Shown here in pieces: positions 9,985 through 56,540 of a stretch of DNA of 64,000 nucleotides. The translations under genes and the position numbers were made by a program. The number at the start of each line of letters is the position of its first letter. The first letter of the stretch is position 1. The notes under the pieces were generated by a model. The model was not told where the DNA came from, did not search any database, and saw only the letters and a program-made list of their open reading frames with translations. The stretch is from Owenia fusiformis (taxonomy: Eukaryota > Annelida > Polychaeta > Sabellida > Oweniidae), in contig CAIIXF020000011.1 of NCBI GenBank assembly GCA_903813345.2, positions 3,496,571 to 3,560,570 of the forward strand, read 5' to 3'.

Positions 9985-10045
9985 ATGGCCTTCTTAAACG
10001 CAGTTGTAACGTTGTTGGCGATGACTGTTTTGACCACCGCTTTAG
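9985..10045 (+). CDS. Exon 1: signal peptide
   Basis: ATG at 9985 opens [20 protein letters not shown], a hydrophobic leader with small residues near its end, as in secretory signal peptides. The exon stops after one base of the next codon at the donor G|GTAATA (phase 1), which matches the phase of the next exon. A possible 5' UTR acceptor, CTTGCTTTTCCAG, lies at about 9936-9948. Exon 1 begins only 62 bases after the TTAATA flank of the upstream transposon, so the promoter or a 5' UTR intron must lie in or beyond that element. Confidence 0.7.
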
Positions 10046-13000: not shown

Positions 13001-16000
13001 AAGCATCCCGTATAAAAACAATATGGCGGCTCCAGGCGAATCAACTGGATCAGTCCATTTTTAAGAAATAAGGGGAGTTCTGTAAAATCAAGTTTATTGA
13101 AATTGTCTTTGAGATGTAATCCGTTTATAATAATTTTGAAAACGTTATCCAAAGAGTGATTGCGTTCAAAGAATACATGTACAACAGCCAATATAAATCC
13201 TTGTATTAGAAACCGGTTTGTCTTGCTTTGTTTCATTTGTAGGATATTTCATATGCCAAGCTGTGTGCTATTACGTTATGGGGAAATTTAGATGCCAATT
13301 TTTCCTTATTATACACAAATAGAAGATCCTGAAACTTCACCCATAAATGTGGTATTGATTTGTCAAAATAAAAATCACCCTTTTATAAATGTGTGACGAT
13401 CTATAATATACTTATGCTATATAACAGTTAGAGGTGTTGACACAACGACCTCGAAACTGTGAACCCTTGAGTATTATTCCGGGATCGGGCCTTTTATACT
13501 AAACGGTGAGCAACACCAGAAACGAGCGTTCGATTTGCTAAACGATATGCGTCACCCTTTAATACTGTATATCGAGATTTTGATGGCAAGAATACTGAGA
13601 AGTATATGCTATTTAATCGTTAGGTCAGGATTAGAAAAACTAGTTCTATTTTTGTATTGACACTTTTTTCACACCACCTTCTCAAACTTTTCATACAGTA
13701 AGTTAGACATAAGTTCATTTTAAAAAATGATACTTTTTTCAACCACATCAAAAGTGTGACTTATTAAAATGTTTCATTTTAAACCTTCTAAGATTACTTT
13801 ATTTTAAAATAATGTTGATAGTTGCTATATGGAGACATCTTATTTATCTATTATAACCAGTGGAGAGGAATAAATAAATCTTCAATCTTGAATTTGAATT
13901 TCATTAGTTCGCATGACGATGTTGAACGACTTTTGGGTCCCATATTTTATGGCATGTTTTGTAAAATGGCCATAAAATCGTGAACACGAGAGATATACCT
14001 ATTGGTAGAACTTGGTAGAATAACACTACATTGGACAAGGCCTAATTGTGCCAAGCATGACACTTAACCCATGCAGGATGACCGACTTATTAAGATTTGT
14101 TTGGGCTACCTTTTTTGACTCACCCTGTAAGTGTTTGATTGTTGTATGATGGGCTTTGCAAGCTTGTGTTTTGATGTAAGATCATGTTTTATCATTTAGT
14201 AAATGGATTTGGGTATTGTAATTTTGGTACATTGAGTTTTCGCACATTATTAGCAGGTTTGGTACATCTGATTTTTTAATGCAGTAGTTTTCTTGATGTT
14301 CAATGAATCAACGAATGAATGTGCAACAAATCTTACACAAGAAATCAATCTTTTCCAATTCTTTATTAATCAGTGAAACATAAAATAGCACATGTATTCG
14401 AAATTTTTCAATTCTAGGTCAGATAGTTTACACATAAAAATAAAATTCTGAACATCGTAAGAACAAAGGTTGAAACAGAAAACATTTTGTGACAACATGT
14501 AATGAATAAACAAACATTTCTTTAGATACCTTTAGCATTAAAATGTGACATAGAACATCAGATTGAGAAAAATATGAGCGGTATCCAAAAATAAAACATA
14601 AGCAAATTCAAAAACTGAATACACTTAACTCAATAAACCATATTAACAACATATGGGTTTCAACATTTCAATCCTATAATATCATGTGGTATATATCATG
14701 CTATTTGAATGCTCGTTCATTGTGCAACAACCCTATTCAGAAAAATCAGTCTGCTAATCTGTATATGTATAATGGATAAAAGACATGGTCAAATGCTGCA
14801 TTTATCAAAATGATACGGTTTTAAAGTGATATCGGCAAGACTGTAGATACCAATTTCATTTATGGTTTACATCTGAATCATCTCATTGTGAATATGGTAT
14901 AATCAAGTTCATGTATAGATGGTTGACAGATAAAATACAGGCTATAAAAGTGGATTCTGATTATATATAACCTGATAACTTCCACTCAGTAAATAGTTAA
15001 AACCCATTCATTTGTTTTGTAGATTCTCCCTGCAATACGGGTATCTCCATTCCCTGGAACGGTGGTTACCAATGTATGTGTCCACCAAACAAGCAAGGCA
15101 AAAACTGCAGTGAAGGTAAGGTCTTTAAAAAGGTAGGAAACCCCAATATTTATATATTTGAAACCCACTAACATTCCATTGAGTACAGGTTTCGTTCACT
15201 GATTGTAACACTTTTTCAGATGTTCCTAACGCAGCTGATAATTGCGCATGGCCCGGGAATGGTAAGTCATATAAAATATAATAAATCGTGAATAATCTTG
15301 ATAGAAAAAATATTAATGTTTGCCTAGTAGTATTGAAATACAACCATTCTTATTTTGATGCATGTCAACAAGATGCTTAGCTATAAAAGAAAATAGTAAC
15401 GTAACGTTGACATATTACAGCTTAGCTAAAACCTACAATTCTAAGAACTGTAAACTAAACTAGAACTCTTAGTATATTTCAAAAGTCTTCTTGCAGATTC
15501 TTGAATACCAGATGTTGGTATTTTCTTCTCCAATTTCAGTGTTGGTCTTTTAGCTCATAACTACGCAGTCGAATTGTCGTCATGTTTGTGCTGAAAAGAA
15601 TCCAAAATATTTAAAAATATTTTTTATAACATATTTTTGCAGATAACGCATGCTCCTCATCACCTTGTCATGGGGAAGGTGCTGTATGTATCAACACATT
15701 CGGCGGGAATTACAAATGCTTATGCCCACAAGGGACTGATGGTGATCGCTGTGGTCAAGGTAAAAAAAGCTTGACCCTATTAGTAGTGTAGTATATGGTA
15801 TTAGTAGAATTATATGTATGAATCACTTATTAATAGTAGTCGTGACAGAATGAGTCATTCCTCTTTTTTGTAATAACATTGATGAATCTCAAACTTTTTT
15901 TATTACATCTTCACGGGATAAACTAACGCGGCAACTATTCTCAACATGCAATAAGATAGTTTCTAAATAGCAGAAAAATCAGTACTGCCATCTTTTATTC

Positions 16001-19000
16001 AGCTTTTAATTTGGGCTAGAGTTCCATTCACTTACATGCTGAAATCTTGGAAAAGTGGCTTAAGTAATGGGAGTTGTTTGTAGAATGAATCGGGGGATTT
16101 TTTTCATGAATTTCGCTTATGTTTTTCATCCAAAAAACATCAATACACTTTAAAACATTTTGTTTACTTTAAGATTACACCATGTAATCCAAAACTATAT
16201 TTCTCATTTTCAAAGATAATCCATGGATTAACACCCAGGTATTTTTACTTTTCAAACTTCAGAGGGCTGGGAATCAATGATGCTCAACGCTTTTGAATAC
16301 GATAAATGCTGTTTTAAATTGGTTTAACGTATGCCAATAATTTCTCAAATTATGTAAGCTGAATGCATTCCTTAATCCCTAGAATGCCTATCATATAACA
16401 TTCTTTTGTCTTGGCCACTTAATATGTTTTGTTGCTGTCTGATCATCAAATCAAATTGTTGTTATTTAAATATGTCAGTCAAATCTGGTGAAACAGCACA
16501 ACATTAACCTAAATAGCACAAGTACATATTATGTAACTCATCCATAATATTTCATGCATCAGGTATTTTAAAAGGCTTAGGGGTTAACTTTTACACATAA
16601 ACTGAACTGACAAATGTGTATGCTTACATGTACAACTTCCAAGATTGTGAGAATTCAAAACTTGTTGATAGCCACATTTTCCTGAATGTGACGTCGAGAT
16701 ATTATGGCATTTATGAGTGGTAAAACATGAAAAAAAGCATTTTCATTTAAAATTAGCATATGATTTGAATTGATGCCAAGAAATGTATTGGTTAACTGTA
16801 TCCGTTTTACATCCATTGCAGATGGCTACATTATAAGACAAGGCATTCACATGCAAAATGTCAACACCTGCCATTTGTTACAGACACCAACTGCCAAACA
16901 CCAACTGCCAAATGATAAACACCAACCACTGAACACCGTCCACAAAAATTTGAGACCATAACAATATGATCATGGAAAATTGTATTTTTTTAAAGTAGGA
17001 ATTTCTGAGGTTATTAGAAAATTGGAAGACAAGGAAGGATTCTGGCTTTAAGATATTAGGGTTATAAATTGCAATGAAACTAAAACAAAACATTCTTTCT
17101 CTCAAATATCACAGTGTATATTCAAATCACAAATACGATATCATACAATTACAATAATTAATGTCTTATACATAAGTACTGCCTTTCCATCCATAATTGA
17201 TGTTGATGAAGATTATGTTTCCAGTTTGATTTATGAACAACATTCATGGTTTTATTTATTATGTTCATTATAATGTCCAATGTGATTGATAATAAATTCA
17301 CACATAGCTATGTCTGAATGTTGAATTAAACGCTGATGCGCTGTTACCCCAATTCATTCCTAACTCACGCTGCAGCTTCTGAAAACAATATACATGAATG
17401 GTGCAAGACCGGGTGGATCCGTAAGCCTCTTCTGCTGTTAACTCCCGCCCATTATGGAACCCATAATGAGACACCATGCATGTATAAAGAGAAGCTTAGA
17501 GGTGGTCGAAATGAGATGGTAATTACTAATGGGGCAACCATGCAGCACTGCTTCGCAACCATATCCATCTGGAGCATCTCTCCGCTACTGTTGCAATCTG
17601 CATACTTGCTCGCTTCCGCTTGGTAGATGGCATTCCAAGGGACTTCAGCATCCAAGTCACTGACTTTCCAGCAAAACCCCTGCATCCTACTTCAATAGGG
17701 AAGCTGTGGGCTTTCCAGTCCTTCTGTCTTGCTTCTGTGATAATGTCATCATATTTTGTTTGTTTCAACTCATGGGAAACCTCAATTCTATCCTCCCATG
17801 GAACAGTCAGCTCGACCAAGATAACACACCTTTTGTCATTTGCTCTAATGACAATGTCTGGTCTTAGTGTCGTAATAGCTATATCTTGTGGAAACACCAA
17901 CTTCCTGTCCAAATCGACCATGATTTCCCAGTCTGCTGTTGTTTGGAGGATTCCTGGGAGCATGGTAGTTCTCTACTGTTGGGGTGCTTTGCTCTGACCT
18001 TCTTTACAGAATGATATCCATGGTGTTGTATCTTTAGCTAGTGGGCAAGTTTTGGAAGCAATTATGATGTCAATTTGCCTGGCTACTTCTCTCAGAACTT
18101 GGTCGTGTCTCCAAGTATACCGATGCTCTCCTAGGGCTACACTACAGGAGCTCAGTATATGCCTTAGAGAAGCTGGTTGGTCTTTACAAAGGGAGCAGGT
18201 TGGATCATCCGTCAAGCCCCAGAGTGACAGATTAGTAGGTGTGGGAAGGGTGTTGCTTAGGGATTTAAGGAAGAAAGCAAGTGATGTTTCAGCTGTCTGC
18301 ATAAGATCACTCCCTGTCACCTTTCTGCTCTCTACAGATTCCCAACTCAGCCATGCACCCTGACTGCCCATTCCAGTTGCTTTAACTAGTCTAGCTTCCT
18401 CCTCGGTTTTCCTTATTTCACTCGTTACCATCTTCCTTTTTGCTTTTGGATCTGCCTTAGACCAAGGGACCCTGCCGTAACTTCCGAGCCCTTTCCGCCC
18501 CTCTGCAACAGTACCTACGATGTCACTCTGTCTCAGTCTGCTTTCAGCATTGCTGATAGCATCCTGAGCAGACCATTTCCTTCTTTCCGGAGGTTTGACT
18601 TCAGATGCCCTGGCTGTTGGATCTTTCGAGTCTCTGAGCAACATTGCTGTCCGCACTTTCGTTACTTTGAATTCTTCAACTATGGAGGAAGTAGGAAGTG
18701 CAGCTGGAGATGAAGTGCTGTAGAGGTTGACAGAGCTGAAAGATTTAGGAACCCCTAACCATTTGCGAAGGAACTTGCCAGCTATCCTTTCCATGGCCTG
18801 CACAGAAGTTATGGAGAAGTCATACATGGTGAATGGCCAATTCAACCTAGGAATAATTCCATACTGGAAGCACCAGATCTTAAGCTTCCCAGGAAGTGGT
18901 GTCCTATCTACTGCTTTCATCCAGGTAGCTAGCTGATGAAGCGTATCTGCTGTGTGGGTCTTGTCATTGAGACTGTGGTCAAACCATTTTCCAAGGCATT

Positions 19001-22000
19001 TAATTGGATTCTCACTGATGGTCGGAATCATCTCTCCTTGCATCGTAAACTTGTTGTTTGATATTACGCCTTTCTTGAGGATGAGGCTTCTGGGTTTCTT
19101 GGGTTTGAAAGTTAATCTGCCCCATGTAGCCAGTTGTTCAAGTCGAGACAGAATCCATCTCATCTCAATTTCCTTGCATGTCATTGCTGTTATGTCGTCC
19201 ATGAACGCTCTGCAAGGGGGATGGCGTGTTCCATCAGATGCGAGTGGCCCCCTACATTCTTTTGCTGCATCAGTCAGTAGAATGTTCATGGCTGCTACAA
19301 AAAGAATCACTGATACTGAGCATCCAGCCATGATGCCTTTCTCTAGTCGCTGCCAGTCAGAAGTGATATGTCTTGTGGAAAAGCGCATATATAGTCCGCC
19401 AAGATGTAATTTGACAAGTCCTATTACCTCAGGTGGCACATGGTAATGTTCCAGGGCAGTGTAGATAAGTTGATGAGGCACGCTTGGATAAGCTTTTGCG
19501 AGGTCAAGCCATACCACTGAAAGATCCTTCTTCTCCTTCTTGGCCTCCCCAATCAGTTTGGATATAGCTGCTGTATGTTCGACACACCCAGCAAAGCCTG
19601 GTATTCCTCCTTTCTGGACAGAGGTGTCAACATACTTGTTTTCCATGAAAAAGGTTGTAAACCGTCCGGCAATCACAGCCCAAAATATCTTGCCTTCAAC
19701 ACTAAGTAGGGAGATTTCTCTAAATTGGTCAAGTGAGATGGAGTTCTCCTCCTTTGGGACAAAGCAGCCCTCTGATATGAGCCAAGGAGCAGGGAGTTCT
19801 TTCTTAATCCAAAGGACTTGCATGAGTCTCCAAAGTCTTGTGGTCAATAGTGGACAGTTCTTATATATCTTGTAGGTAAGCCCACTTGGACCAGGTGCCG
19901 AGCCTGATCTGCCTTTTCTTATAACTTGTTGAACCTCAAACAGCTTGATTGGTGTTGTATCAAACTCATGTTCAGGCAATGGAGCAGGTGATAAATTGGG
20001 CTTCTCGGCCAATGGCTCATTACGTCTAGGGTCAGTATGGGCAGCTTGCACACTTTTGTTCATTTCTTCCTTTGTACATTCCAGGTTTCCAGATTTCGGT
20101 TTCCCCAAAATATCACTTACGAATTGGAATGGACTCTTGAAAAACTTGCTCCTGGTTTTCCTCTTTTCAGACCTCTTTTTTCTCAAGTTATCGGCCTTCC
20201 TGAGCAGTAACAGCCTGCGTCTAAGAGATTCTCTCAGCCGATGGAGTCCTTCTTTCTCTGAAACGTCAGCATTTAAGAAAGCTTTCCTCAAACCTCGCAA
20301 GTCTTTCCTGATGTTACCTATTTCTTTCTGTCTTCTGCTTGGCCCTTTCTCTTTCGGGATTCCATCCCCCTTCTCCTCAAGTCCAAACCTGTCCATACAT
20401 ACATCATACACAATAGATGTCATAGCTTCAACTTTCCTCTTAGCCTCCCCCTTCAAAGTATTATTGAGGATCTGCTGTAAGTCAGCATCCAAGTCTTTCC
20501 ATTCAGAACTTGATGCTGCTTGTAGTTTCAGTTTTGGTTTCCTTTCAAAAACTGGTACTTTCACAGCTTCTTCCTGCTCTCTTGTGTTCACTTCCTCCTC
20601 TACGGAGCAGCTAAGGCCACCGGGGTACTACATGCCATGTGCACCAAGTACAATTAGCATCTTGCCAAGTACGAAGTATACACGTTGCCCAGCATGTGGA
20701 CCAAGTTACAAGTCACATGCTGCCATGTCCCATATTTAAATTTTTCAAAGTCTCAATGATAAACCTCGCATGTGCAGCATGTGGACCAACTTAGCAAGTG
20801 ACATGGTACCATGTTGCATGTTCAAATAGCATCTTGCCAAGTTTAAACTATACAAGTTGCATGTGCAGCATGTGGACCAAGTTAGTAAGTGACATGGTAC
20901 CATGTTGCATGTTCAAATAGCATCTTGCCAAGTTTAAACTATACAAGTAGCATGTGCAACATGTGGACCAAGTTGCCAAGTGACATGGTACCATGTTGCA
21001 TGTTCAAATAGCATCTTGCCAGGTTTAAACTATACAACTTGCATGTGCAGCATGTGGACCAAGTTGCCAAGTGACATGGTACCATGTTGCATGTATAGAT
21101 AGCATCTTGCCAAGTTTAAACTATACAACTCACATGTGCAGCATGTGGACCAAGTTAGCAAGTGACATGCTACCATGTTGCATGTTCAAATAGCATCTTG
21201 CCAAGTTTAAACTATACAACTCGCATGTGCAGCATGTGGACCAAGTTAGCAAGTGACATGCTACCATGTTGCATGTTCAAATAGCATCTTGCCAAGTTTA
21301 AACTATACAACTCGCATGTGCAGCATGTGGACCAAGTTGCCAAGTGACATGGTACCATGTTGCATGTACAGATAGCATCTTGCCAGGTTTAAACTATACA
21401 ACTCGCATGTGCAGCATGTGGACCAAGTTGCCAAGTGACATGGTACCATGTTGCATGTACAGATAGCATCTTGCCAAGTTTAAACTATACAACTCACATG
21501 TGCAGCATGTGGACCAAGTTAGCAAGTGACATGCTACCATGTTGCATGTTCGAATAGCATCTTGCCAAGTTTAAACGATACAACTTGCATGTGCAGCATG
21601 TGGACCAAGTTAGCAAGTGACATGCTACCATGTTGCATGTTCAAATAGCATCTTGCCAAGTTTAAACTATACAACTCGCATGTGCAGCATGTGGACCAAG
21701 TTGCCAAGTGACATGGTACCATGTTGCATGTACAGATAGCATCTTGCCAGGTTTAAACTATACAACTCGCATGTGCAGCATGTGGACCAAGTTGCCAAGT
21801 GACATGGTACCATGTTGCATGTACAGATAGCATCTTGCCAAGTTTAAACTATACAACTCACATGTGCAACATGTGGAACAAGTTAGCAAGTGACATGCTG
21901 CCATGTTGCATGTTCGAATAGCATCTTGCCAAGTTTAAACGATACAACTTGCATGTGCAACATGTGGACCAAGTTAGCAAGTGACATGCTGCCATGTTGC

Positions 22001-34000: not shown

Positions 34001-37000
34001 CGACAAAAAGCCATTCTTGGCATCCATGTCTATGGAAGACGTAACACTCAAGACTCAGGTATCAAGGTACGATCACTTTTTATTTGTCAATTTTATAATG
34101 ATTCAAGGATACAATCTGTCCAACAAGGTTATATAGAACTTTCGAAATTGACTGTATTCACGCCAACTATAAACTGTACACAAAGTCAACATTACAACCG
34201 GGGTATATTCGCAAAGAATACCCCTGGTAATACGTGTAATGTGAAACGTCATAACGGCGGGGCGTAGTAATGTCGGACCGTAATGAATATTCGAAACATA
34301 TTGGTGAGTTTTCATGTTCGAATCGTAATATAGACCTCAGATCAGGGGTTATATAGTCGAATACACCCCTTAGGATTAAGCACAAAGGTTTTTGAACCCC
34401 TCACTCCCTTCGGTCGTTTGGGGTACAGAAAACGTTTGTGTCTAGCCCTGCAGGGTGTATTCGACAATACTAACCCCGCTCTTCGGTCTATATTTCTTAA
34501 TTTGTGTTGGTCAGGTTAGGATTGGATCAGTTAATTTTAATCTTTCTTGACGTCTATATGTACAAATAGCATGTAATAAAAGTGTAATTTTAAAAGGAAA
34601 GTCATTATGAAAGAAATGTTAAAGGGAGGATAGAGGGCGGGGGGAGAGAGAGAGAAAGAGAGGGAGCGTGTAAAAGAAAGAGAGGAAACATGTAGAGGCA
34701 AAGGGAGATAGAACATGAATGTTTAAACTAAGTTTAATATGTGTTCCAGGACACGATGCACGAAGGACGACAAATGGGGTTTCAATTATGAGACAGGGAC
34801 CACGTGGGTATCCAAAGGTTGCAGAGGAGAGTTTTGTATACACTTTAAAGAACCTGAACCAACAACTACACAAGGTCCGACAAGTCCATCAACTCAACCA
34901 GGTATAAAAGTTCTCATATGCACACATTTCACGTGTTTTGCATCGCTGACTGTACATTCTGCAAAAGTTCGTTTTATCTATTGTTGATGGCAGAGTACCA
35001 AAAGTATTTTTCCTATTGCCAAACTCTCAAATAACTAGTAGTAAATAACCAGCAAACTTAATGTAACTTTTTGCTCATAATTTAAGAAACATAATACACA
35101 TTAGTCAAAAATAAGAAGACGATTGATGAGTTCAAACTCAAAATATTACATATAAACATTTACCAAAAACACGATGTGATTTTTTGTGACATCTGTAACT
35201 TACCTTAGATTACCAAACTGACCAAAATCAAGTTGCTCTGTAAAATTATGCAGACAAAAAAAAAGCTTGTGAAGTATGAAATGTGGCCACCGAACGCAAG
35301 CCATTCTTATCAGGTTTGGAAATTTCTTGACTGTGACTAAATTTGAATTTTTTACGATTGAACTTCGACATAATGACCTTACTTTGCAAATGTCATCATT
35401 CGTGCTTTGTGAACATCATATTGAATAAAAACAATTTCGCAAACATTTTGATTATTTAAAAGAAAGAAAAATGAATAGAATAACACTTACACTGCTACCC
35501 ACCTAGTTACACAGACGTATCGTCAGTGTATCATGGCGGAACTACTTCCGGGACTAGGTTTCGGTAAGATTTTTTTGATTTCCCGATTTACACCTACTTA
35601 TAAGTCACGTTGTGGATACTAATTTGGCTCGAAGTTAAGGAAGATGTGTCGATGGTTCTAGGTTTTATATGTTAACGAAGACACAATTCACGTATTTAGT
35701 CCCTCGCTTTTGTTACACTGACGAACGACCAATATCACACTGACGAATCTTTGATTTGGAGCTGTTGCAACACTGACAAACCCAGACCCAAGGGAAAACA
35801 ACTTTGGACGATCCCGATACAAACATTATCTAACTTAAATGTAAATATATGGACAGTGTCGTCCCTAGAACACTTTGCCAATATCATGATGTTCCCAATT
35901 TTTACAAAACCATGCAGTTTTCACCATTCTGAGCAGGTTCATAATGATTTTTAGCCAGAATTGTGAAAAAAAGCCAAAGCTCGTATATTGGAGAGGTATC
36001 TCTGGCCATGGACATGTTTCTAAAACGTTACACGTATGTGTGTTGTCCCCGGGTGTGGTCAAACGTACACAGTTTTGCATTATTGAACATGACCATTGTA
36101 AATATCATTCTAGGAGAACAATCCGTATCAATTATTGTGAACATACAAAGGAAAAGAGCAAGTTACCATCCCGTGCATCATCAATTGTCACCTATTAATT
36201 TCAATAGTCAGTGGCATTTAAAGACAATTAGTGAATTTAGGATTCTTATTTACGCAAAAAATCGATCATATATTGGCTAAAGATGATTGATCATCAAAAT
36301 CTTCATCAACAGTGCAAGTGAATCTGATAATTAAAAATGAATTGAAAGCATTTCTAAATGTAATCTTATGTGTACATTTCACATATGATGATACTCTAGT
36401 GAATTAATATAAAATAATCAAAAATGCATTTGTTTTGTATACTTGCTAGGTGAGGAGTTGTAATTGATGTTTTTCAAATACTTGACCCTCGCAAAAAGTT
36501 TCAGTAGAAATATATTATTTTAGTGATTTTGTATGTTGTAGGTGACTTTGTAGAAAATATTTTGCAATGTGTGAAAATAATTTAAGCCCAAGAATCAATA
36601 CATTGTGGAATGACATTTGATGCAAGCATCTCGAGCAAATTTCAGCAAACATGAAACTTAACCCACTAGTGTCCGCCATTGCAGTAGAAGTAGATGGCTC
36701 TTGGTCAACTACAATAGGAGCCAGTCAAAACAAATGTGATGATAGTTGTAGCAGAATAAAGTAAATAAACTGCGCACTCCCAATAGCGTTATCACATCAA
36801 CCCGATGTTATATACTACGAGTAAATTGGGACTCCAATTTATGATAAATTGAGAATATGATGCCTGTTTTGTTTAAATATTTCGAGATGTTATGCACATA
36901 TCATAATTTATTTATTTATTTAGAAAAAATGTATATACAATAATAATACATGACTAATACTGACACCAAATGGCATATAAAAGTATAATGTCAAGTATCA

Positions 37001-40000: not shown

Positions 40001-43000
40001 ATTTCAAATTAGACACGAGGAAGTCAATATTGAGCAAGTTATGGCTGTTTTAAATTCAAATAAAACATTTAACCCGTACCGGTCCAGCTTTTGCTTTTGA
40101 CCCGTACCGGTCAATTTTCGTTAGCTGCGTATACCAAGGGTGAATATGTAGTTTGTTTTGTTTATGCTGGTAAACCTGAAAACGTTTTGATTGGTCAATC
40201 AGCCAGAAGTCACACGTCGATGTCCATGCGATCTGTCAATCAATACAGTTTCGCGATTCTCTTGACAGCGTAGAATTTATGGAAATCCCGAAACAGCTGA
40301 ATAACTTATCATAATATCAGCGATGATGTATTCGATTGTACAAGGCGGTAATAATTCAAGATCAGATAAGTAAAAAAAAATACCGACTTGGGCAAGGCTA
40401 GTTGATAAGGTACTTTTAAAAATATACTAAACAACACAATAGGACGAACATATTTTTTTATATATGCAATTAAATAACGTTTTGCAATGTCAAAGTTTAA
40501 CGTCTAATTAGTTTTATTTACAAAACAGGATGTAATGAATATCGTAAAATTTAGTATCCTTATACAAGGGCAGTCAAACGTTGTTGAATTTTTTTTCTAA
40601 TTTTGAAGGATATAATTAGATAGGAATAACATGTAAACTTACTGTAATTTACACCAGGTACATCAGCTACACCAGGTTCATCAGCTACACCAAGTACCTC
40701 AGCTACACCAGGATCATCAGCTGCACCGATAACATCAGCTTCACCAGGAACATCAGCTGCACCAGTTACATCAGCTGCACCAGTTACATCAGCTGCACCA
40801 GTAACATCAGCTGCACCAGTTACATCAGCTGCGCCAATTACATCAGCTGCACCAGTTACATCAGCTGCACCAGTTACATCAGCTGTGCCAGTTACATCAG
40901 CTGCACCAGTTACATCAGCTGTACCAGGTACATCAGCTGCACCAGTTACATCAGCTGCACCAAGTACCTCAGCTACACCAGGAACATCAGCTGCACCGAT
41001 AACATCAGCTTCACCAGGAACATCAGCTGCACCAGTTACATCAGCTGCACCAGTAACATCAGCTGCACCAGTTACATCAGCTGCGCCAGTTACATCAGCT
41101 GCACCAGTTACATCAGCTGCGCCAGTTACATCAGCTGCGCCAGTTACATCAGCTGCACCAGTTACATCAGCTGCGCCAGTTACATCAGCTGCGCCAGTAA
41201 CATCAACTGCACCAGTAACATCAGCTGCGCCAGTTACATCAGCTGCGCCAGTTACATCAGCTGCGCCAGTTACATCAGCTGCGCCAGTTACATCAGCTGC
41301 GCCAGTTACATCAGCTGCGCCAGTTACATCAGCTGCACCAGTTACATCAGCTGCACCAGTTACATCAGCTGCACCAACTACACCAGCTTCACCAGTTACA
41401 TCAGCTACACCAGGTATTTCAAGCGCTTGCTTTATTATACTTGGTCCTTTCTGAATTCTTAAAGGTCAAATGTCAAGGTATTGCATGACAAATTATTTAA
41501 GACAGGTACATCTGTGAATATAAGTTTTTTTATCACGATAAAGTCAACATATCTCATCGAAATAATGCGTTTTCCTCATATTGAGGTCCCAAAGGATAAT
41601 AAAATTATCAGAATTTGACTCTCCGAAAACTATAGGTTAGGACACTACCTCAAAACATTTTTTCAAAATAGTTATTTTGTGAATCTTATTTGCAATCAAA
41701 ATCTGATTTCGTAGTGTTAAGAAACATTCATCGTTTATTTTATGATTCAGCCGTTCAAATTGCTGTTAGGTACTTGCTCGTTGCATAAAGATGATAACAC
41801 AAGAAGTTCAGGAAGGTTTAACCATACATAGTCTAGATTATGATTTAATTGAAAAGCGTTGAATTCAATTAATGGACGTCCGATTTGGTTTTATGTCCTC
41901 AACTTAGGTTTAATTTGATATTAACACATAAGTCATTCACGATTGCGACAAATTGTACAAGGGGGGGGGGGGGGTTGTCAATAAAATCTGTGAAAATGTT
42001 TCTTATTATAGGCTTCCCCAAATTACGGAATGAATAAGTAAACGAATCGTCGAGATAGTATTCTTGTTCACACTGATGCCAACTTTTCTTCAGTCCCTTT
42101 TTTGGACCTGTATAAATGTTTTTTTTCAATATACCATAAACCGAAATAACCGTAGCCCTGCATGTGTAGTATATCGAGATAACGGGTGATGATACAGATA
42201 AAATTAATGATGTTGGTTGAATCTGTCTGAATCTCGACTGGCATACGATTGGATGCCCCTTCATTGTAACTGTGATTAAACAAGAACATGTTAGTTGTCA
42301 TATGAATAAACCAAGGGTTAATTGAATTTTAGCATTGCACCAATGGAGCAATGGAGATTTGGCCCAAGTTTTTTTAAATGTCATGGATAATTAGTTAAAT
42401 GACATAAATGAAGTGTAAATCAATTCTATTATTGGAGAAAACTTGTCGCTGAATACAAAATGTGTTATCATTGAAAAGGTTCAAATTAAATTAATAAACC
42501 ATCTGATTGTGTTTTATATCATTTATTTGCCGCACGTTGGGCTCATTAGTTTGTTTTGTATATTTCATAAGCTCTACAAATTGAGGAACTAACTTATATT
42601 TATTTATTTTCTTACGTTCATCTGATTATCAAATCGGTATGCCTAAAAAATCCTACGAAAGGCATAGGCGTAGCCAGGGGGGGGGGTGCGATCGCACCAA
42701 TCGCACCCCCCCTGGCTACGCCCACCCTCCATATCCAATGAACAGTGAACAGAGGAAGAAAAGAGCTTTAAAATGCTTTTTATTTGAAGCTTCTAGCTCA
42801 ATTTTGAAGGAAGTTGAATCAATTTTTGTAAAATTCAAAATAAATATATTATTGGCTTGTTAATGCTACAATCGCATCCCCCTGACTGAAAACCGATTTT
42901 TTGGGCGATCACATCCCCCTGACTGAAAACTAGCTACGGCCCCGGAGCGTGTTAAAGTATGGTTCGTAGCACTCTCTAATCACCCAGTTGAGATTCATGC

Positions 43001-44496
43001 TTGTATACAAGTATTAGGTCTTGGGTTATACTTCGTTACTCAGTCACATTATGTTGGAGGCTTGAATAAGGCAAACCAAAGTTTAACAAACCGAAGTTTT
43101 TTTCGTTTTCTAAAATATTGACTATTTTCCAGTTAAAATTAAATAGTGTGTATGGGCCAATTTACGATAATTGATATTTCAAAAAATATAAAATTTGAAA
43201 ATTAAAATATTCATATGACGATTGATTTTTTCTTGAATTGTAGAGGAAACACATTATATTTTAAAAATTCGTTAGCGGCATCATTGAAACTATATTGGAA
43301 TTTCGTAGCTTGAGCAATTTTCAAAGGAATAAAAAAAATTAACATATTTTCGTTAATCGTTCAATTTGTCTGGTTTAATTTCAAATAAGATATTATTTAT
43401 CACATGTGTGTGTGTCAAACAAACAATAACCGTGTTTCCTTGGATATTAGTATTGAATTGTAAAGATAAAAATATAAATTATTATCCGCAAATTATTTTG
43501 AACGACCCCTATGTCAAAAGCGATAACTTAAGAAATGGGCAAGATACGTTCATACAATTTTACATGTACAGTTAGGACAAAGTTTGTGGCTTCATTGATT
43601 ATGTGTTTTTTTTCCAAAAAGGGTGTCTAATAATCATGAATTCTCCAATACATACTGTTTTTGATGATACATTTGAGCCTGGCCATAGGAAAACCGGTCT
43701 TATCACAAAAATTGAAATTGTGCTACAGAGCAAAAATGTGCCCAAGATTGAGAGTAAAATGTGCTTAATTAAAATCCAACTTTTTGGTCTATATATGCAA
43801 GGAAAAATCGCACAAAATGACACAAGTCATGGCTCATTTTGAAAGGTCTTTTTGTGCTTTTTAAGATAAACAAAAAATCAAAATATTATAAAATCTGTGA
43901 TAAGACCCTGTGATAGACTTCATTAACCATTCCAAGAGTACCCTACTTTATAACATCATACATTATAAATAATGATGAAAAGCAAAATATTTATTTATTT
44001 TCACTCTTTTATATACACATTTAAGGTATTTTAATGTAATATATTCATACGCCTTGTTTATTTATATTTGTTTAGTCTTTCAATTAGTTTAATTTTGAAA
44101 GTGAATGGACCGGGACATATTATCACAGGGTGTGTACTAAATTAAGCGTGATAAGTGAACGCGCACTGTAGGTACAACAAGAGGGAAATGACATTTGAGT
44201 AAACTGATGTTTTCATCGTTTCAGAAAGATGTAATCTAGTTTGTAGATATTTTAAGGAAAATAGATCTAATCAATTTAATTGTGATTTTACATGATATCT
44301 TACATATTTTCCCATTTGTTCCAGGAATTTCCGGAAACAAAGATACCAGTGTTTAATAAATGAATGTATTTCTATGATGTAGAGGTGAACGAATGTTCTA
44401 CGGCGAATGGTGGATGTACACAAATCTGCACAGATACTTTCGGATCATTCGTTTGCAGCTGTCGCGATGGGTTCTCTTTGCAAGACGGCAATGCAT
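9985..44496 (+). CDS. Secreted EGF / DUF3011-like / mucin mosaic gene (8 exons seen)
   Basis: Visible exons are 9985-10045, 15023-15115, 15220-15261, 15643-15759, 33943-34066, 34750-34901, 40658-41413 and 44383-44496. All use GT donors and AG acceptors. All junctions are phase 1, except the phase-2 intron that splits the DUF3011-like module. The joined frame is open and encodes about 486 residues: signal peptide, reduced EGF, short spacer, full EGF, six-cysteine DUF3011-like module, Thr/Pro linker, Thr/Ser/Ala/Pro repeat, calcium-binding-type EGF. This is an extracellular mosaic built by exon shuffling of phase-1 modules. A mucin stalk would be expected to be O-glycosylated. The molecular function is unknown to me; adhesion, lectin-like or secreted matrix roles are possible. 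The 3' end was not found. The introns (up to 18 kb) are filled with transposons. Linking of all eight exons into one transcript is inferred from order, strand and phase. Confidence 0.72.
10046..10929 (+). other. Intron 1, first part
   Basis: Non-coding sequence after exon 1. I see no repeat or RNA with confidence; open frames on the minus strand (9891-10178 and 10290-10478) overlap exon 1 or lack family features. Confidence 0.4.
10930..11110 (+). repeat. Short tandem repeat around CTGTAATATTATCGA
   Basis: Diverged units share GCCTGTAATATTATCGA followed by a GTTCTTTTA segment. They recur at about 10938, 10998, 11020 and 11085. They lie in intron 1. Confidence 0.55.
11111..12849 (+). other. 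Intron 1, middle part
   Basis: AT-rich intron sequence. The segment at about 12450-12520 (ATACCAGAATACCTATCCTCG) is a diverged relative of the hairpin at 12850-12981. No gene is seen. Confidence 0.45.
12850..12981. repeat. Near-perfect ~60-bp-arm hairpin
   Basis: The left arm starts ATACTGGATGACCATGAGGT and the right arm is its reverse complement, ending at the matching ATCCAGTAT. The loop is the short AGACTCAGCTTCGCTTCGCC stretch. Near-identity of the arms suggests a recent foldback event. A single-armed relative lies at about 12450. Confidence 0.75.
12990..13558. mobile_element. TTAA-flanked short TIR element
   Basis: The left end is TTAA|AGGGTGACG and the right end is CGTCACCCT|TTAA, with TTAA at 12986-12989 and 13559-13562. 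The TIR is short (about 9-12 bp) and there is no transposase, so this would be a non-autonomous element. TTAA duplications are used by piggyBac and Kolobok families; neither can be chosen here. The short TIR leaves some chance of coincidence. Confidence 0.5.
13559..15022 (+). other. Intron 1, last part
   Basis: Non-coding. ACTCACCCTGTA at about 14118-14130 resembles a lone mariner end, but no partner was found. The sequence ends in the acceptor TTTGTTTTGTAG at 15022. Confidence 0.45.
15023..15115 (+). CDS. Exon 2: reduced EGF-like module
   Basis: The acceptor is TTTGTTTTGTAG and the donor GAAG|GTAAGG; the exon is 93 nt with both ends in phase 1. It encodes a module with [15 protein letters not shown] and GKNCSE. 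Four cysteines are present. By spacing they correspond to EGF cysteines 2, 4, 5 and 6. Cysteines 1 and 3, which pair with each other in a standard EGF fold, are both absent, so the remaining disulfides 2-4 and 5-6 could still form. Confidence 0.72.
15116..15219 (+). other. Intron 2
   Basis: A 104-bp intron with donor GTAAGG and acceptor CACTTTTTCAG, far shorter than its neighbours and with clean splice signals. Confidence 0.65.
15220..15261 (+). CDS. Exon 3: 14-codon mini-exon
   Basis: 42 nt with phase-1 ends, acceptor CACTTTTTCAG and donor AATG|GTAAGT. It encodes [13 protein letters not shown] with a bridging Asp at the junction. It has a single cysteine. It could be a spacer or an alternatively used cassette, since skipping it keeps the frame. 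The splice sites are strong, but the coding content alone would not prove it. Confidence 0.6.
15643..15759 (+). CDS. Exon 4: complete EGF-like domain
   Basis: 117 nt with phase-1 ends, acceptor ATATTTTTGCAG and donor CAAG|GTAAAA. The encoded module has all six EGF cysteines in order: ACSSSPC, GAVC, NYKCLCP, GDRC. The CINTFGG segment and the GTDGDRC end are typical of secreted and receptor EGF repeats. There is no clear DxNE calcium-binding start. Confidence 0.82.
15760..16066 (+). other. Start of intron 4
   Basis: Non-coding sequence after exon 4; nothing recognisable. Confidence 0.45.
16067..16386 (+). repeat. ~320-bp repeat, inverted partner at 28392-28715
   Basis: It begins GGGAGTTGTTTGTAG, contains TGCTCAACGCTTTTGAATAC, and ends near ATTCCTTAATCCCTAGAAT. 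The reverse complement recurs at 28392-28715 at roughly 90% identity by eye. The two copies may be the TIRs of one element into which the 17.3-27.8-kb block was later inserted, or two independent copies. I found no target-site duplication. Confidence 0.7.
16387..17316. other. Intron 4; no gene seen
   Basis: A short run of CCAACTGCCAAACACCAACTGCCAAA (AC-rich, about 16886-16930) is the only low-complexity feature. No coding signal is supported. Confidence 0.45.
17317..17426 (+). repeat. Left copy of the 110-bp direct repeat
   Basis: It runs from AATGTTGAATTAAACGCTG to GGTGGATCCGTAAGC and recurs at 27719-27828 in the same orientation with about one difference. It lies just beyond the 3' end of the minus-strand retroelement. 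Confidence 0.85.
17526..17972 (-). CDS. Restriction-like endonuclease domain of the retroelement
   Basis: This lies in the same frame as the RT and is separated from it by a single TAG. The first in-frame Met after the stop is at 17963, but nothing suggests separate initiation. About 34 residues past that Met is RPDIVIR, then [14 protein letters not shown], then KQTKYDDI and PIEVGCRGF. The RPD - x14 - E - x15 - K/KY spacing follows the PD-(D/E)XK-like endonuclease of RLE LINEs, which nicks the target for priming. The TAG falls where related proteins as I remember them continue, so it is read as a loss-of-function stop. Confidence 0.7.
   Translation of the reverse strand, partial: RTTMLPGILQTTADWEIMVDLDRKLVFPQDIAITTLRPDIVIRANDKRCVILVELTVPWEDRIEVSHELKQTKYDDIITEARQKDWKAHSFPIEVGCRGFAGKSVTWMLKSLGMPSTKRKRASMQIATVAERCSRWIWLRSSAAWLPH
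17973..20591 (-). CDS. Reverse transcriptase of an RLE-type LINE
   Basis: 872 codons from a GTG at 20591; the frame is open a little further, up to the insert border. Residues 84-150 are very basic. The RT core holds SAPGPSG (about 231-237), [13 protein letters not shown] (289-301), motif [16 protein letters not shown] (359-373), motif [14 protein letters not shown] (419-431) and the catalytic box [10 protein letters not shown] with FMDD (461-470). A CCHC-type knuckle, C-x2-C-x8-H-x4-C, lies at 799-816, followed by a YTWRHDQVL block. The order matches RLE LINE proteins. The frame has no stop across RT and knuckle, which suggests a fairly young insertion. The shadow frames on the opposite strand are not genes. 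Confidence 0.85.
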   Translation of the reverse strand: MNTREQEEAVKVPVFERKPKLKLQAASSSEWKDLDADLQQILNNTLKGEAKRKVEAMTSIVYDVCMDRFGLEEKGDGIPKEKGPSRRQKEIGNIRKDLRGLRKAFLNADVSEKEGLHRLRESLRRRLLLLRKADNLRKKRSEKRKTRSKFFKSPFQFVSDILGKPKSGNLECTKEEMNKSVQAAHTDPRRNEPLAEKPNLSPAPLPEHEFDTTPIKLFEVQQVIRKGRSGSAPGPSGLTYKIYKNCPLLTTRLWRLMQVLWIKKELPAPWLISEGCFVPKEENSISLDQFREISLLSVEGKIFWAVIAGRFTTFFMENKYVDTSVQKGGIPGFAGCVEHTAAISKLIGEAKKEKKDLSVVWLDLAKAYPSVPHQLIYTALEHYHVPPEVIGLVKLHLGGLYMRFSTRHITSDWQRLEKGIMAGCSVSVILFVAAMNILLTDAAKECRGPLASDGTRHPPCRAFMDDITAMTCKEIEMRWILSRLEQLATWGRLTFKPKKPRSLILKKGVISNNKFTMQGEMIPTISENPIKCLGKWFDHSLNDKTHTADTLHQLATWMKAVDRTPLPGKLKIWCFQYGIIPRLNWPFTMYDFSITSVQAMERIAGKFLRKWLGVPKSFSSVNLYSTSSPAALPTSSIVEEFKVTKVRTAMLLRDSKDPTARASEVKPPERRKWSAQDAISNAESRLRQSDIVGTVAEGRKGLGSYGRVPWSKADPKAKRKMVTSEIRKTEEEARLVKATGMGSQGAWLSWESVESRKVTGSDLMQTAETSLAFFLKSLSNTLPTPTNLSLWGLTDDPTCSLCKDQPASLRHILSSCSVALGEHRYTWRHDQVLREVARQIDIIIASKTCPLAKDTTPWISFCKEGQSKAPQQ
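20680..22315 (+). repeat. 91-bp tandem array (~18 copies)
   Basis: The unit contains AGCATGTGGACCAAGTTAGC, AAGTGACATGCTACCATGTT and AGCATCTTGCCAAGTTTAAA. Two or three subtypes alternate (GTTGCCAAG against GTTAGCAAG; GTACAGATAG against GTTCAAATAG), so blocks of several units were duplicated together. The left end grades into the hAT-like terminus. Open frames inside it (21534-21722 and 21858-22043) are repeat artefacts. Confidence 0.9.
22316..24199. other. AT-rich interior of the hAT-like element
   Basis: No transposase or other gene is seen. About 23130-23360 carries degenerate CCGTA/CTACCGT motifs that look like an inverted relative of the GCGGTAG field at 46497-47530. 23990-24190 begins CCCTAACC-rich repeats that lead into the satellite. 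Confidence 0.5.
24200..26400 (+). repeat. Higher-order satellite: 49-bp monomers with telomere-like linkers
   Basis: The monomer runs CCAGACCCTAATGATACAGG, GTCCACTTGGCAGGAGCGGC, GATCGTGTA (49 bp). Blocks of 5 to more than 10 monomers start near 24200, 24610, 25085 and 25770. They are joined by a conserved linker of about 150 bp that contains CCTTAACCCTAACCCTAATT and AACCCACTGAGGACACAG. The blocks share the same variant order, e.g. a GGAATTCGCG monomer and a GCGAAATTTGC monomer, so whole blocks were duplicated. Because 49 is not a multiple of 3, open frames on both strands here are artefacts. Confidence 0.92.
26401..26679. other. AT-rich spacer inside the hAT-like element
   Basis: Unique-looking sequence between the satellite and the right terminal array. 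No gene is seen. Confidence 0.5.
26680..27245 (-). repeat. Right terminal array, inverted and diverged
   Basis: Repeated motifs such as AAGATGGCAAGTA, ATGCACATCCAACATG and TACTTGGCA are inverted relatives of the left array (GTTGCATGTTC, GCATCTTGCCAAG). The units are far more diverged than on the left, so the left array was homogenised more recently. Confidence 0.7.
27284..27590 (-). CDS. N-terminal zinc-finger region of the retroelement
   Basis: A Met at 27590 opens [20 protein letters not shown] and continues to a THPIGRTQ segment. A neighbouring frame then reads a zinc finger C-x2-C-x12-H-x5-C (27376-27444), starting [11 protein letters not shown]. This frame runs without a stop to the 8-bp duplication at 27276-27283. 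The start and the finger are not in one frame here, so at least one small indel has occurred. N-terminal fingers of RLE LINEs are thought to bind target DNA. The finger frame is continuous with the RT frame once the hAT-like insert and one duplication are removed: 6676 bases, and the codon phases agree. Confidence 0.65.
27719..27828 (+). repeat. Right copy of the 110-bp direct repeat
   Basis: Same orientation and length as 17317-17426, with about one substitution. It lies upstream of the retroelement's 5' coding end. It could be a very long target-site duplication or a terminal repeat belonging to the element. Confidence 0.85.
27829..28391. other. Intron 4; no gene seen
   Basis: AT-rich sequence between the direct repeat and the inverted repeat copy. 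The open frames on + show no family features. Confidence 0.45.
28392..28715 (-). repeat. Inverted partner of 16067-16386
   Basis: The reverse complement begins GGGAGTTGTTTGTAG and ends near AATGCATTCCATAATCCCTAGAAT. The match stops abruptly at the same inner point as in the left copy. Confidence 0.7.
28716..29059. other. Intron 4; dispersed repeat piece
   Basis: TTTTAGCATTGCATCTATGG and TTTGGCCCAAGTTTGGGCC at about 28858-28910 have a relative at about 42326-42375. No gene is seen. Confidence 0.5.
29060..32807. mobile_element. 3.75-kb TA-flanked foldback element with ~1-kb arms
   Basis: The left end is TA|GTGCAGTCAGAATG and the right end CATTATGACTACAC|TA (TA at 29058-29059 and 32808-32809). 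The arms pair for about 1 kb at roughly 80-85% identity by eye: 29060-30110 against 31980-32807. The left arm holds about three diverged ~165-bp units around TCTCGTTTTTCAGATCT and GGTTACCATGGTAACCA. The centre (30370-31700) includes a smaller inverted repeat. No transposase is seen. The TA flanks suggest Tc1/mariner-type mobilisation. Confidence 0.78.
31188..31660. repeat. Inverted repeat in the core of the foldback element
   Basis: TTCTATATTGTTTCCTATTA at 31188 pairs with its complement at about 31560-31580, and GGTGAACAATTCAACTTTGG at about 31458 pairs with a complement at about 31595-31615. The two pairs are offset, so two overlapping foldbacks are present. Confidence 0.6.
32810..33307. 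other. Intron 4; no gene seen
   Basis: AT-rich sequence, no supported feature. Confidence 0.45.
33308..33443. repeat. 136-bp hairpin MITE-like unit
   Basis: GAGATCATAGTCTTGCTTAA at the left pairs with CTTTGAGCAAGACTATGAGG at the right. Inside, CTCTCTAGGG and a G12 run are seen. The size and foldback fit a small MITE. Confidence 0.6.
33943..34066 (+). CDS. Exon 5: first half of DUF3011-like module
   Basis: The acceptor TATTTCATTACTAG opens the exon in phase 1, matching exon 4. The donor CAAG|GTACGA closes it in phase 2. It encodes [16 protein letters not shown] followed by [18 protein letters not shown]-x-R-x3-C and V-x-L-x2-Q-x-S-R are the conserved first-half features of DUF3011-type modules as I know them. 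It was chosen over the ATG frame at 33974 because only this frame joins the next exon and completes the motif. Confidence 0.6.
34750..34901 (+). CDS. Exon 6: second half of DUF3011-like module and Thr/Pro linker
   Basis: The acceptor is TATGTGTTCCAG and the donor ACCAG|GTATAA. The exon is entered in phase 2 and left in phase 1. It encodes [32 protein letters not shown], then [17 protein letters not shown]. The C-x5-WG-x6-TWV-x2-GCRGEF pattern closely follows the C-terminal half of DUF3011 (WGYD...IWV..GCRAEF), known mainly from bacterial secreted proteins. With exon 5 the module has six cysteines, which would allow three disulfides. The Thr/Pro tail leads into the mucin exon. Confidence 0.75.
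34902..35489 (+). other. Start of intron 6
   Basis: Non-coding; ends with ACTTA, the left flank of the next element. Confidence 0.5.
35490..38456. mobile_element. 2.97-kb CACTG-ended TIR element
   Basis: The left end is CACTGCTACCCACCTAGTTA and the right end closes with TAACTAGGTGGGTATCAGTG. ACTTA flanks both ends (35485-35489 and 38457-38461), a 5-bp duplication. The TIRs match for about 280 bp (to about 35760 and from about 38150) and include ATCATGGCGGAACTACTTCC. The CACTG start with a 5-bp duplication is closest to Transib; CMC/CACTA families share the CACTR start but usually give 2-4 bp. A LINE is nested inside. No transposase is readable. Confidence 0.75.
36900..37921 (-). mobile_element. 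5'-truncated CR1/Jockey-group LINE
   Basis: The open frame 37232-37921 on the minus strand starts just after the catalytic box of RT ([10 protein letters not shown]). It continues with [64 protein letters not shown] and an ending HSYNTRQ...SLWNSLK. These are the canonical blocks of the CR1/L2/Daphne-type C-terminus. The 3' UTR runs to about 36900 and ends in an AAATAAATAAATAAAT-type tail on the minus strand, the usual LINE 3' microsatellite. The frame has no stop over 229 codons, so the insertion is relatively young. It lies inside the CACTG element. Confidence 0.85.
38462..38728 (+). other. Intron 6 between two elements
   Basis: Contains a small tandem duplication of GTTATCCTATAATTACT. No gene is seen. 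Confidence 0.5.
39234..39412 (+). mobile_element. 179-bp MITE, copy 1
   Basis: Ends GCCGGTGTAAAAG and CTTTCACACCGGC. It contains GGGCCAGTAAGGGCCGTTAG. A second copy lies in the opposite orientation at 45123-45294 at roughly 80% identity by eye. Confidence 0.75.
39501..40142. mobile_element. 642-bp TIR element with AATAT flanks
   Basis: The left end CACCCTTGGTATACGCAGC and right end GCTGCGTATACCAAGGGTG are perfect inverses. AATAT lies on both sides (39496-39500 and 40143-40147). The arms pair for about 155 bp and include GACCGGTACGGGT motifs. A 36-bp tandem duplication (GCCCC-AACCGGTCCGTCTTCTC) is at about 39910-39985. It is nested in the 9-bp-TSD element. Confidence 0.8.
40410..40657 (+). 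other. End of intron 6
   Basis: AT-rich sequence leading to the acceptor CTGTAATTTACACCAG. Confidence 0.5.
40658..41413 (+). CDS. Exon 7: mucin-like hexapeptide repeat
   Basis: The acceptor is ATTTACACCAG and the donor ACACCAG|GTATTT, both phase 1, so the 756-nt exon adds exactly 252 codons. It is built of 18-nt units encoding TSAAPV, with variants [12 protein letters not shown] and TSAAPI, about 42 units. Many units are identical in DNA (ACATCAGCTGC[AG]CCAGTT), so the array expanded recently and probably differs in length between individuals. Dense Thr/Ser/Pro predicts heavy O-glycosylation and an extended stalk. The exon starts and ends with the same CACCAG|GT-type sequence as the splice site, so the splice sites may share the repeat's own sequence. 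The Met at 40885 is internal, not a start. Confidence 0.85.
41414..42666 (+). other. Intron 7, first part
   Basis: Non-coding. It has a G14 run at about 41961, and a repeat relative of 28858-28910 at 42326-42375. The minus-strand open frame at 41899-42264 overlaps the G-run and shows no domain. Confidence 0.5.
42667..42722. repeat. GC-rich perfect hairpin
   Basis: GGGCGTAGCCAGG-type arm, a G-run, TGCGATCGCACC and the mirror CCTGGCTACGCC. A further partial inverse, CTAGCTACGGCCCCG, is at about 42931-42945, so this may be the left part of a 280-bp element ending there. GGGCGTAGCCAGG also occurs at about 3878. Confidence 0.6.
42723..44382 (+). other. Intron 7, remainder
   Basis: AT-rich. Two near-repeats of ATC[AG]CATCCCCCTGACTGAAAA lie at about 42870 and 42908. 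No gene is supported. Confidence 0.45.
44383..44496 (+). CDS. Exon 8: calcium-binding-type EGF
   Basis: The acceptor is TTTCTATGATGTAG and the preferred donor GCAT|GTACGT, both phase 1 (114 nt). It encodes [39 protein letters not shown], with the final Cys completed by the next exon. The E/D-x-N-E start, the C-x-D/N-x4-F/Y hydroxylation-type motif (CTDTFGSF) and the GF-x-L-x-DG-x-AC end are hallmarks of cbEGF domains. The codon split implies that a following exon begins GC or GT; I did not find it within the window. Confidence 0.85.
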
Positions 44497-49530: not shown

Positions 49531-50746
49531 GTTATAACAAAAATTCTAAAATAACGAGTAGTGGTCGCCATTTGTCAAGATTGTTGCCATCACGGTGCCC
49601 ATGTCAATGTGCGCGCCTACTTAGGCGCGCAGTTTGTTTTGATCGCATATTGATATATATATATATATTGATCGTATGCTGAAATCTGATTTTAAGACTG
49701 TTAAACTGCAATGTTTTCTTGTTGAATGCGTTCATTACCTGGCGAATATATGAATCTTGCAAAAACTAGCAAAAACATATGTGCAAATGAAGTTTTAAAA
49801 CATTAAAGTCCCCGATAAATCGGGCTACGTATACCACCGTGTTTACATTAGGGGATTAGAAGAGTTTATTTTTTATTTAGGTATGCAAGCTACGTATATC
49901 AATATTAGGCCTTCATTCATGTACGCGTGTGCATGTAATCAGCATGCCCTTCAATATTATGTAAACCAGGCTATTCAAGTATAATGTACACTATTTATAT
50001 TATGTGTGTACTACATACAATACAATTCCCTGGGAAACAAAACACAAATACGTTTTATATGTTCAAAATGAGCCATTTGATTGATGCAAACACTAAATAG
50101 CTTCATAAATAACATCTACAAAGTATATCTAATAGTAATTTTCAATTTCAATGTTGAAACTTCCCTGGTTAAGATTATATGGGAAATCATCACGAGACGA
50201 AGATCGTTCGCCTTCCTGGCTTACCTCTGAATCGTGTACCGGGCAATCTCTTTATATAGTTTAGCGAGAGCGGTGCGCCTGCGCAGTTTTAAACTTTGGC
50301 GCACACTTTAAGCAGATTAATGGCATTTCGTCACCGATTTAACGGGAATTGATACATAGATCGATCTTGCACTTTAAAAATAAATGAAAAATACTCCAGG
50401 CTCGTTTTATATCCAAATTCTTACCCAGTTATCATGTACGATTCAAAATATTTCGAGTTAAAACACTTAATCGGGAGATTAAATTGAAATAAAGCACAAA
50501 CCGCGCGCCTATTTTAGCCAGAAATTACAAACTGCGCGCATACACTATCTAAACTACATATACGTACTTAACATTGGAATTTCTACAGAGGCATATGTAG
50601 GTGCTTTGGAAATCCTGCTATATCGTCTGATTTTATGAGATTGCATATTGAAAGTCAAAGTTTATAACAGAGTAACAATGAATTAGGTTTGAAAAGAAAA
50701 AAAACGTTTTTTCCAAATTATCACCCTGTTTAGCTCACCTTGTCGA
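49531..50746. other. No gene; GCGCGC-rich dispersed motifs
   Basis: GCGCGCCTACTTAGGCGCGC at about 49608 is a small palindrome. Related CGCGCGCC and TGCGCGC motifs occur at about 50505-50545 and 57060-57120. A TA microsatellite lies at about 49655. Confidence 0.45.
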
Positions 50747-55538: not shown

Positions 55539-56540
55539 GATTTTCATTCCAATTCTTTGCAAGTATGAAGTATGGATGTCCCTGATTCTAAATATGCTTG
55601 TGGTTTTGGAATTTGACCTCCGGGTGACCTTGAAAAGGTAAAAAAGGTTAAATTGCTAAAATTGCTCAAATTGATTCGAAATTGGTACCATTGTATTACA
55701 CTGTACTAAACTAGAGTAAATTAGGTCAACATTTTGACCTTGACCTTTGACCTTCACCGTAAAATGACGTAAAACTTATTTCTTGTTTTACCTGTTCAAG
55801 GAGCCACTGTAGTTATTTTTTGCATGCCTTACTCTTCCCATTTAACATATCTCTAGGGTTTATAATTTGGGTGATTTTCATTCCAATTCTTTGCAAGTAT
55901 GAAGTATGGATGTCCCTGATTCTAAATATGCTTGTGGTTTTGGAATTTGACCTCCGGGTGACCTTGAAAAGGTAAAAAAGGTTAAATTGCTAAAATTGCT
56001 CAAATTGATTCGAAATTGGTACCATTGTATTACACTGTACTAAACTAGAGTAAATTAGGTCAACATTTTGACCTTGACCTTTGACCTTCACCGTAAAATG
56101 ACGTAAAACTTATTTCTTGTTTTACCTGTTCAAGGAGCCACTGTAGTTATTTTTTGCATGCCTTACTCTTCCCATTTAACATATCTCTAGGGTTTATAAT
56201 TTGGGTGATTTTCATTCCAATTCTTTGCAAGTATGAAGTATGGATGTCCCTGATTCTAAATATGCTTGTGGTTTGGAATTTGACATCCAGGTGACCTTGA
56301 AAAGGTCAAAAAGGTTAAATTGCTAAAATTGCTCAAATTGATTCGAAATTGGTACCATTGTATTACACTGTACTTAACTATAGTAAATTAGGTCAACATT
56401 TTGACCTTGACCTTTGACCTTCAACGTAAAACGACGTAAGACATATTTCTTGTTTTTCATGTACAAGGAGCCACTATAGATATGTTTTGCCCAAATTTTG
56501 TACATGGCATGCCTCATTCTTCTCATTTAACATATATTCC
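55539..56540 (+). repeat. 334-bp tandem array, three copies
   Basis: Units start GATTTTCATTCCAATTCTTT at about 55539, 55873 and 56207. Each contains TGACCTTGACCTTTGACCTTCA. The first two are almost identical, the third diverged by a few percent, and the third runs into the 55200-like sequence (GGGCACCCCAGTGGGGCAAA). The first duplication is recent. Confidence 0.9.

Follow-up and report, generated by a model that had tools for sequence, protein, structure and literature searches.

Carried in the window (the whole 64,000-nucleotide stretch of Owenia fusiformis DNA analysed here) is a candidate gene of seven plus-strand exons between positions 9985 and 44496, which join into a 472-codon open frame with no stop. 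Exon 1 starts at ATG, the other exon borders are all AG/GT, the introns are GT-AG, and all junctions are in phase 1 except for a phase-2 intron within the DUF3011 domain. From the N to the C terminus, the predicted protein comprises a signal peptide, a four-cysteine EGF module, a six-cysteine EGF module, DUF3011 (encoded by two exons), a Thr/Ser/Pro repeat and a calcium-binding EGF module (cbEGF).

9985..10045, plus strand: exon 1, start codon and signal peptide; ends in phase 1
15023..15115, plus strand: exon 2, EGF variant with 4 cysteines; phase 1-1; 18.1 bits, under the EGF cut-off of 21.5
15643..15759, plus strand: exon 3, EGF with 6 cysteines; phase 1-1; reaches the Pfam EGF cut-off
33943..34066, plus strand: exon 4, first half of DUF3011; phase 1 to phase 2
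34750..34901, plus strand: exon 5, second half of DUF3011 (WGF...) and start of a Thr/Pro linker; phase 2 to phase 1
40658..41413, plus strand: exon 6, mucin-like repeat with an 18-bp unit encoding APVTSA, 251 residues, 55% Ser/Thr/Pro; phase 1-1
44383..44496, plus strand: exon 7, calcium-binding EGF (EVNEC); phase 1-1, last Cys codon split

An earlier note on this DNA had described eight exon candidates on one strand with matching phases and an open joined frame; the strand, the phases and the open frame stand, but only seven exons are recovered, and splice and cysteine scans of the window found no eighth. The six coordinates given there (9985, 15759, 33943, 34901, 40658 and 44496) all coincide with recovered exon ends. 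Elsewhere in the window, Rfam and tRNA scans gave no matches, ten further ORFs have no Pfam match at E ≤ 0.01, and AATAAA occurs 188 times against 151 expected, which makes poly-A signals uninformative.

The Pfam HMM search that had been proposed as a check on the spliced protein places EGF, EGF_CA and DUF3011 above their curated cut-offs, with FXa_inhibition also over its own (hmmscan). The module described earlier as 'DUF3011-like' is a true DUF3011 domain (PF11218), scoring 42.2 bits for the domain alone from the joined exons and 37.4 bits within the joined protein, with a gathering cut-off of 25. Six-cysteine EGF spacing, together with a score above the Pfam cut-off, is found for exon 3 and, once its split Cys codon is completed, for exon 7. 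A genome search with exon 2 gave 64 matches at E ≤ 1e-3, its own locus among them, every one with a six-cysteine EGF within 40 kb downstream; judged by sequence, the exon is a conserved EGF-derived variant, in which, from the spacing, C1 and C3 have probably been lost. In EGF these two cysteines pair with each other. Past the end of the window, at 108731-117018 in window coordinates, a tandem paralogue has a signal exon, the two EGFs, the two halves of DUF3011 and a repeat; its signal exon, at 108731, is 1.5 kb before its EGF exons and matches exon 1 at 65% identity over 26 residues (tblastn, E 7e-6 in a search of 216 kb).

Intron 3 spans 18 kb, mainly because a 12.65-kb insertion sits in it.

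16071..28721, no strand: transposon-like insertion in intron 3, 12.65 kb, ends inverted over about 315 bp
17976..20627, minus strand: reverse transcriptase ORF in the insertion (RVT_1 62.3 bits, zf-RVT 27.7 bits)
20765-22314: 91-bp array in the insertion
24226-26395: 49-bp array in the insertion

A 2.4-kb relative of this insertion, about 93-96% identical and without the inner 10.5 kb (17326-27844), is found at C11:3952437-3954837. Other elements lie downstream of the exons: at 50693-52146, separate ORFs show a GIY-YIG domain (31.3 bits) and a weak, sub-threshold match to reverse transcriptase (28.4 bits), resembling a degraded Penelope-like element, and at 55539-56490 is a 334-bp tandem repeat of 2.9 copies that are 97% alike.

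The joins between exons rest on paralogy. Those from 15759 to 33943 and from 34901 to 40658, the two singled out in the earlier note, agree with the structure of paralogues that have the same exons far closer together; at C11:3658129, about 1.5 kb takes in DUF3011 and the beginning of the repeat, and over that interval the DNA is collinear with the window's but lacks the inserts. A search of the same genome for DUF3011 gave 79 matches, of which 70 were kept at E ≤ 1e-3 and 9 weaker ones dropped. The first half of the domain is covered by 34 of the 70, one of which (C12:30507283) is probably the second half of a neighbour, leaving about 33 loci. Upstream of all 34 first-half exons, on the same strand, are a six-cysteine EGF exon within 30 kb (within 6 kb for 31) and a four-cysteine EGF exon within 40 kb, and for 32 the second half of DUF3011 is part of the same hit or no more than 3 kb away; as a neighbour's exon could be counted in clusters, the 6-kb figure is the stricter. 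Conversely, scoring 150 of 199 candidates gave 38 EGF2-type matches at E ≤ 1e-6, and 33 of these have a kept first half no more than 30 kb downstream. Two of the five exceptions have a second half ~1 kb on, two on contig 9 have dropped weak matches downstream, and C4:15950494 has none. Far from standing alone, the mosaic is one of about 33 loci in this genome with DUF3011 and the same module order; the earlier description of it as a single secreted gene assembled from shuffled, mostly phase-1 modules is supported.

Compared with paralogues, dN/dS is 0.16 for exon 2 (one measurable comparison of two), 0.05-0.20 for exon 3 (five comparisons), 0.06-0.38 in five of six comparisons for the first half of DUF3011 and 0.21-0.39 in four of five for the second half; the remaining values for the two halves, 1.03 and 0.64, are those against the nearest paralogue (L027), with very few changes. 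For the cbEGF exon, two values of 0.61 and 2.05, each from few changes, give no clear purifying selection.

Exon 6 holds 42 copies of the 18-bp unit, a Thr/Ser/Pro-rich tandem repeat of the kind that defines a mucin-like domain. The array is open in two of the three forward frames, so its openness alone is no proof of coding, and the argument is carried by the paralogues of the repeat. Among 20 DUF3011 second-half loci with downstream DNA, a Thr/Ser/Pro repeat follows DUF3011 in 16, mostly within its exon and otherwise in the next one, the repeats of L033 and L034 being short; these 16 are not all independent, since some copies on contig 8 are almost identical to one another. At L040 there is a Thr/Pro linker only, which leaves a mucin repeat unclear, and none was seen after DUF3011 at C11:3956229, C12:30507283 and C119. 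The units vary among loci (APVTSA, ATSATP, TTTTMPS, TTTGPS), with the composition kept. All eight repeat ends compared carry a CAG/GTA donor in phase 1, so a further exon is expected after the repeat. At L035 the sequence following the repeat might be read as a GPI-type tail, but CAG/GTA stands at the same spot, so no claim is made for it.

Chance exon-like stretches beside a minisatellite, with no gene at all, would accommodate the two open frames of the array and the long, repeat-filled introns, but are scarcely credible in view of the same order at all 34 first-half exons, the purifying selection and the Pfam scores, which apply to exons 2-5. With the module order recurring genome-wide and Pfam scores over curated cut-offs, the exon set is beyond chance.

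The attachment of exon 7 calls for separate treatment. It scores 29.2 bits for EGF_CA (cut-off 27) over 40 residues running two residues past the donor into genomic DNA. Among the 150 of 334 candidates that were scored, its best match elsewhere in the genome (83%, E 5.8e-16) is the fourth and last cbEGF exon of a minus-strand DUF3011 gene at C11:3.94 Mb, about 400 kb off, in which the order is four-cysteine EGF, EGF, DUF3011 and cbEGF; over ~2 kb downstream of cbEGF, the window and this gene are collinear in blocks of 84-95%. Another copy, at window coordinate 70230, no longer has an acceptor AG and is relic-like. Two neighbouring genes, one of EGF, EGF, DUF3011 and mucin without cbEGF and the other a separate cbEGF gene or an exon relic at 44383, might be read from the relic-like state of that copy, from a dN/dS of the exon that is not low, and from a cbEGF counterpart at just one other DUF3011 locus among the 150 of 334 candidates scored. 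We regard this arrangement as unlikely, since the gene at C11:3.94 Mb itself has same-strand cbEGF exons after DUF3011 (the first lies ~3.9 kb away, and no mucin repeat was seen in the interval), the phase and the [D/E]VNEC start of exon 7 fit a splice, and the phase-1 donor at eight of eight repeat ends leads one to expect a further exon.

On this sequence evidence, it is likely that exon 7 is joined to the gene. Because it ends inside the last Cys codon, one or more exons must follow it; a comparison of the window and 5 kb further downstream with the gene at C11:3.94 Mb brought out no conserved exon after cbEGF. Reading straight on from cbEGF would give a C terminus of about ten codons before a stop, which all three copies have at the same position; as the donor CATGTACGT is conserved and those codons vary, this reading was put aside as the less probable.

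One pattern scan yielded 111 bacterial DNA stretches, from which 117 DUF3011 units were drawn; the 115 distinct units make up a bacterial-only profile. Against it the window domain scores 39.3 bits and five other animal domains 31.4-49.7 bits, with 10.9 bits the best among 1,200 shuffled animal domains. Like the domains of bacterial proteins (for example, in Arenimonas, Edaphobacter and Lysobacter), that of the window has four conserved cysteines, W-G-[YF] and W-V-x2-G-C-R-x2-F. Bacterial proteins have 1 to 4 units by motif count in 79 open frames (80 listed of 111 loci), none of them intron-split as read; the window gene has a single domain, split by a phase-2 intron. Read by eye, the window domain keeps 12 of the 15 columns invariant in 47 bacterial units, including all four Cys; Ile48, Asp51 and Ala56 (the Ile, Asp and Ala of IWVDxGCRA) are changed, so the sugar bound may differ. 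The Asp of the bacterial IWVD motif, which formed part of the search pattern for the bacterial units, is replaced by Ser in the window, by Ile in the divergent L009 and by Ala in almost every other copy read; a ligand other than galacturonic acid is therefore conceivable. A bacterial unit is predicted to be a six-strand all-beta domain (pLDDT 95.9); Foldseek found 58 PDB matches to this model at E ≤ 10, none of them reaching E ≤ 0.001, and a PDB sequence search gave no match.

Animal EGF-mucin mosaics join phase-1 EGF modules to a Thr/Ser/Pro rod, as in the window gene, and we know of none with DUF3011. The parts of the DUF3011 literature examined, a PF11218 search included, make no mention of DUF3011 with EGF or mucin partners; the word EGF occurs 0 times in PMC5484111, PMC8306185 and one further paper and 6 times in a rotifer paper (PMC8878817), which reports DUF3011 lectins as absent from six rotifer species. 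Judged by titles and the opening lines of abstracts, a literature search on Owenia mucus and on annelid lectin-EGF-mucin expansions gave nothing on point. The modules are known, and their arrangement, which recurs in an expanded family, was found nowhere in these searches; it may already sit unremarked in a predicted proteome.

The domain had been taken in the earlier note as known mainly from bacteria, but animal DUF3011 proteins are already on record: Aplysia AKL lectins, with three repeats, are described in PMC5484111. There the hemagglutination by AKL does not depend on Ca2+, galacturonic acid inhibits it at 0.013 mM and xylose at 6.25 mM, treatment with galacturonic acid deforms larvae, and AKL-like proteins are reported in other molluscs and in Lingula. 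The AKL egg lectins are, like the predicted product of the window gene, secreted animal DUF3011 proteins with a signal sequence, and a published AKL peptide (PMC5484111) has C-x4-S-F-G-Y, in line with the C-x4-[STK]-W-G-[YF] of the bacterial units and the window gene. By the same account AKL has three tandem DUF3011 domains, whereas the window gene has one, split by a phase-2 intron and placed between EGF modules and a mucin rod.

By analogy with these lectins, we read the window gene as one member of an expanded animal gene family whose products would be secreted lectins with DUF3011 on a mucin stalk (probability roughly 0.6). DUF3011 would be the carbohydrate-recognition part, and acidic or galactose-type sugars are proposed as its likely ligands because the Aplysia AKL lectins, the DUF3011 proteins of known activity found, bind galacturonic acid. 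Together with the EGF modules, the rod, presumably O-glycosylated, may hold the lectin out from mucus or extracellular matrix, or crosslink it into them. Many copies with exchanged C-terminal parts (varied mucin rods, a repeated domain on contig 8, cbEGF) would constitute a set of mucus lectins, which could serve in catching microbes or food particles, or in building mucus and tube.

A mucin rod with EGF modules is common in matrix proteins. This composition, together with the absence of the bacterial IWVD Asp from the copies read, would also suit a structural protein of mucus or tube matrix, in which DUF3011 and EGF mediate protein-protein assembly without sugar recognition; we hold that role to be rather unlikely, as the DUF3011 proteins found to have been tested are lectins (PMC5484111).

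If the lectin reading is right, the family adds a candidate class of mucus lectins. DUF3011 carries the label 'unknown function' in bacteria, the AKL lectins provide the sole activity found in the portions of literature examined, and a large, mostly constrained animal family joining it to EGF and mucin offers dozens of natural variants for testing ligands. A more speculative and doubtful history would have a bacterial sugar-binding domain enter an early lophotrochozoan, gain introns, become a phase-1 shuffling module and, in this lineage, grow into dozens of secreted lectin-mucins with exchangeable C-terminal parts, forming a diversified recognition system.

Several members of the family depart from the common form. 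L009 (contig 4, C4:14355646-14355843, minus strand) is divergent, a single exon encoding the whole of DUF3011 and one EGF exon flanking it on each side; it lies outside the 20 loci surveyed for repeats, and no repeat was seen there. Following DUF3011 and the mucin repeat in contig-8 copies is a repeated domain (CESLKLSGL...NERPVY...GAWLIG; C8:31406840-31407262, C8:31460102-31460524 and three more on C8) with no Pfam family at E ≤ 0.01 and 68 genome matches at E ≤ 0.001. Family members at C12 30508657-30514979 and on C119 have extra EGF exons of another type upstream of the four-cysteine EGF, and at C12:30345079-30345198 the second half of DUF3011 lies within a 2424-residue open frame.
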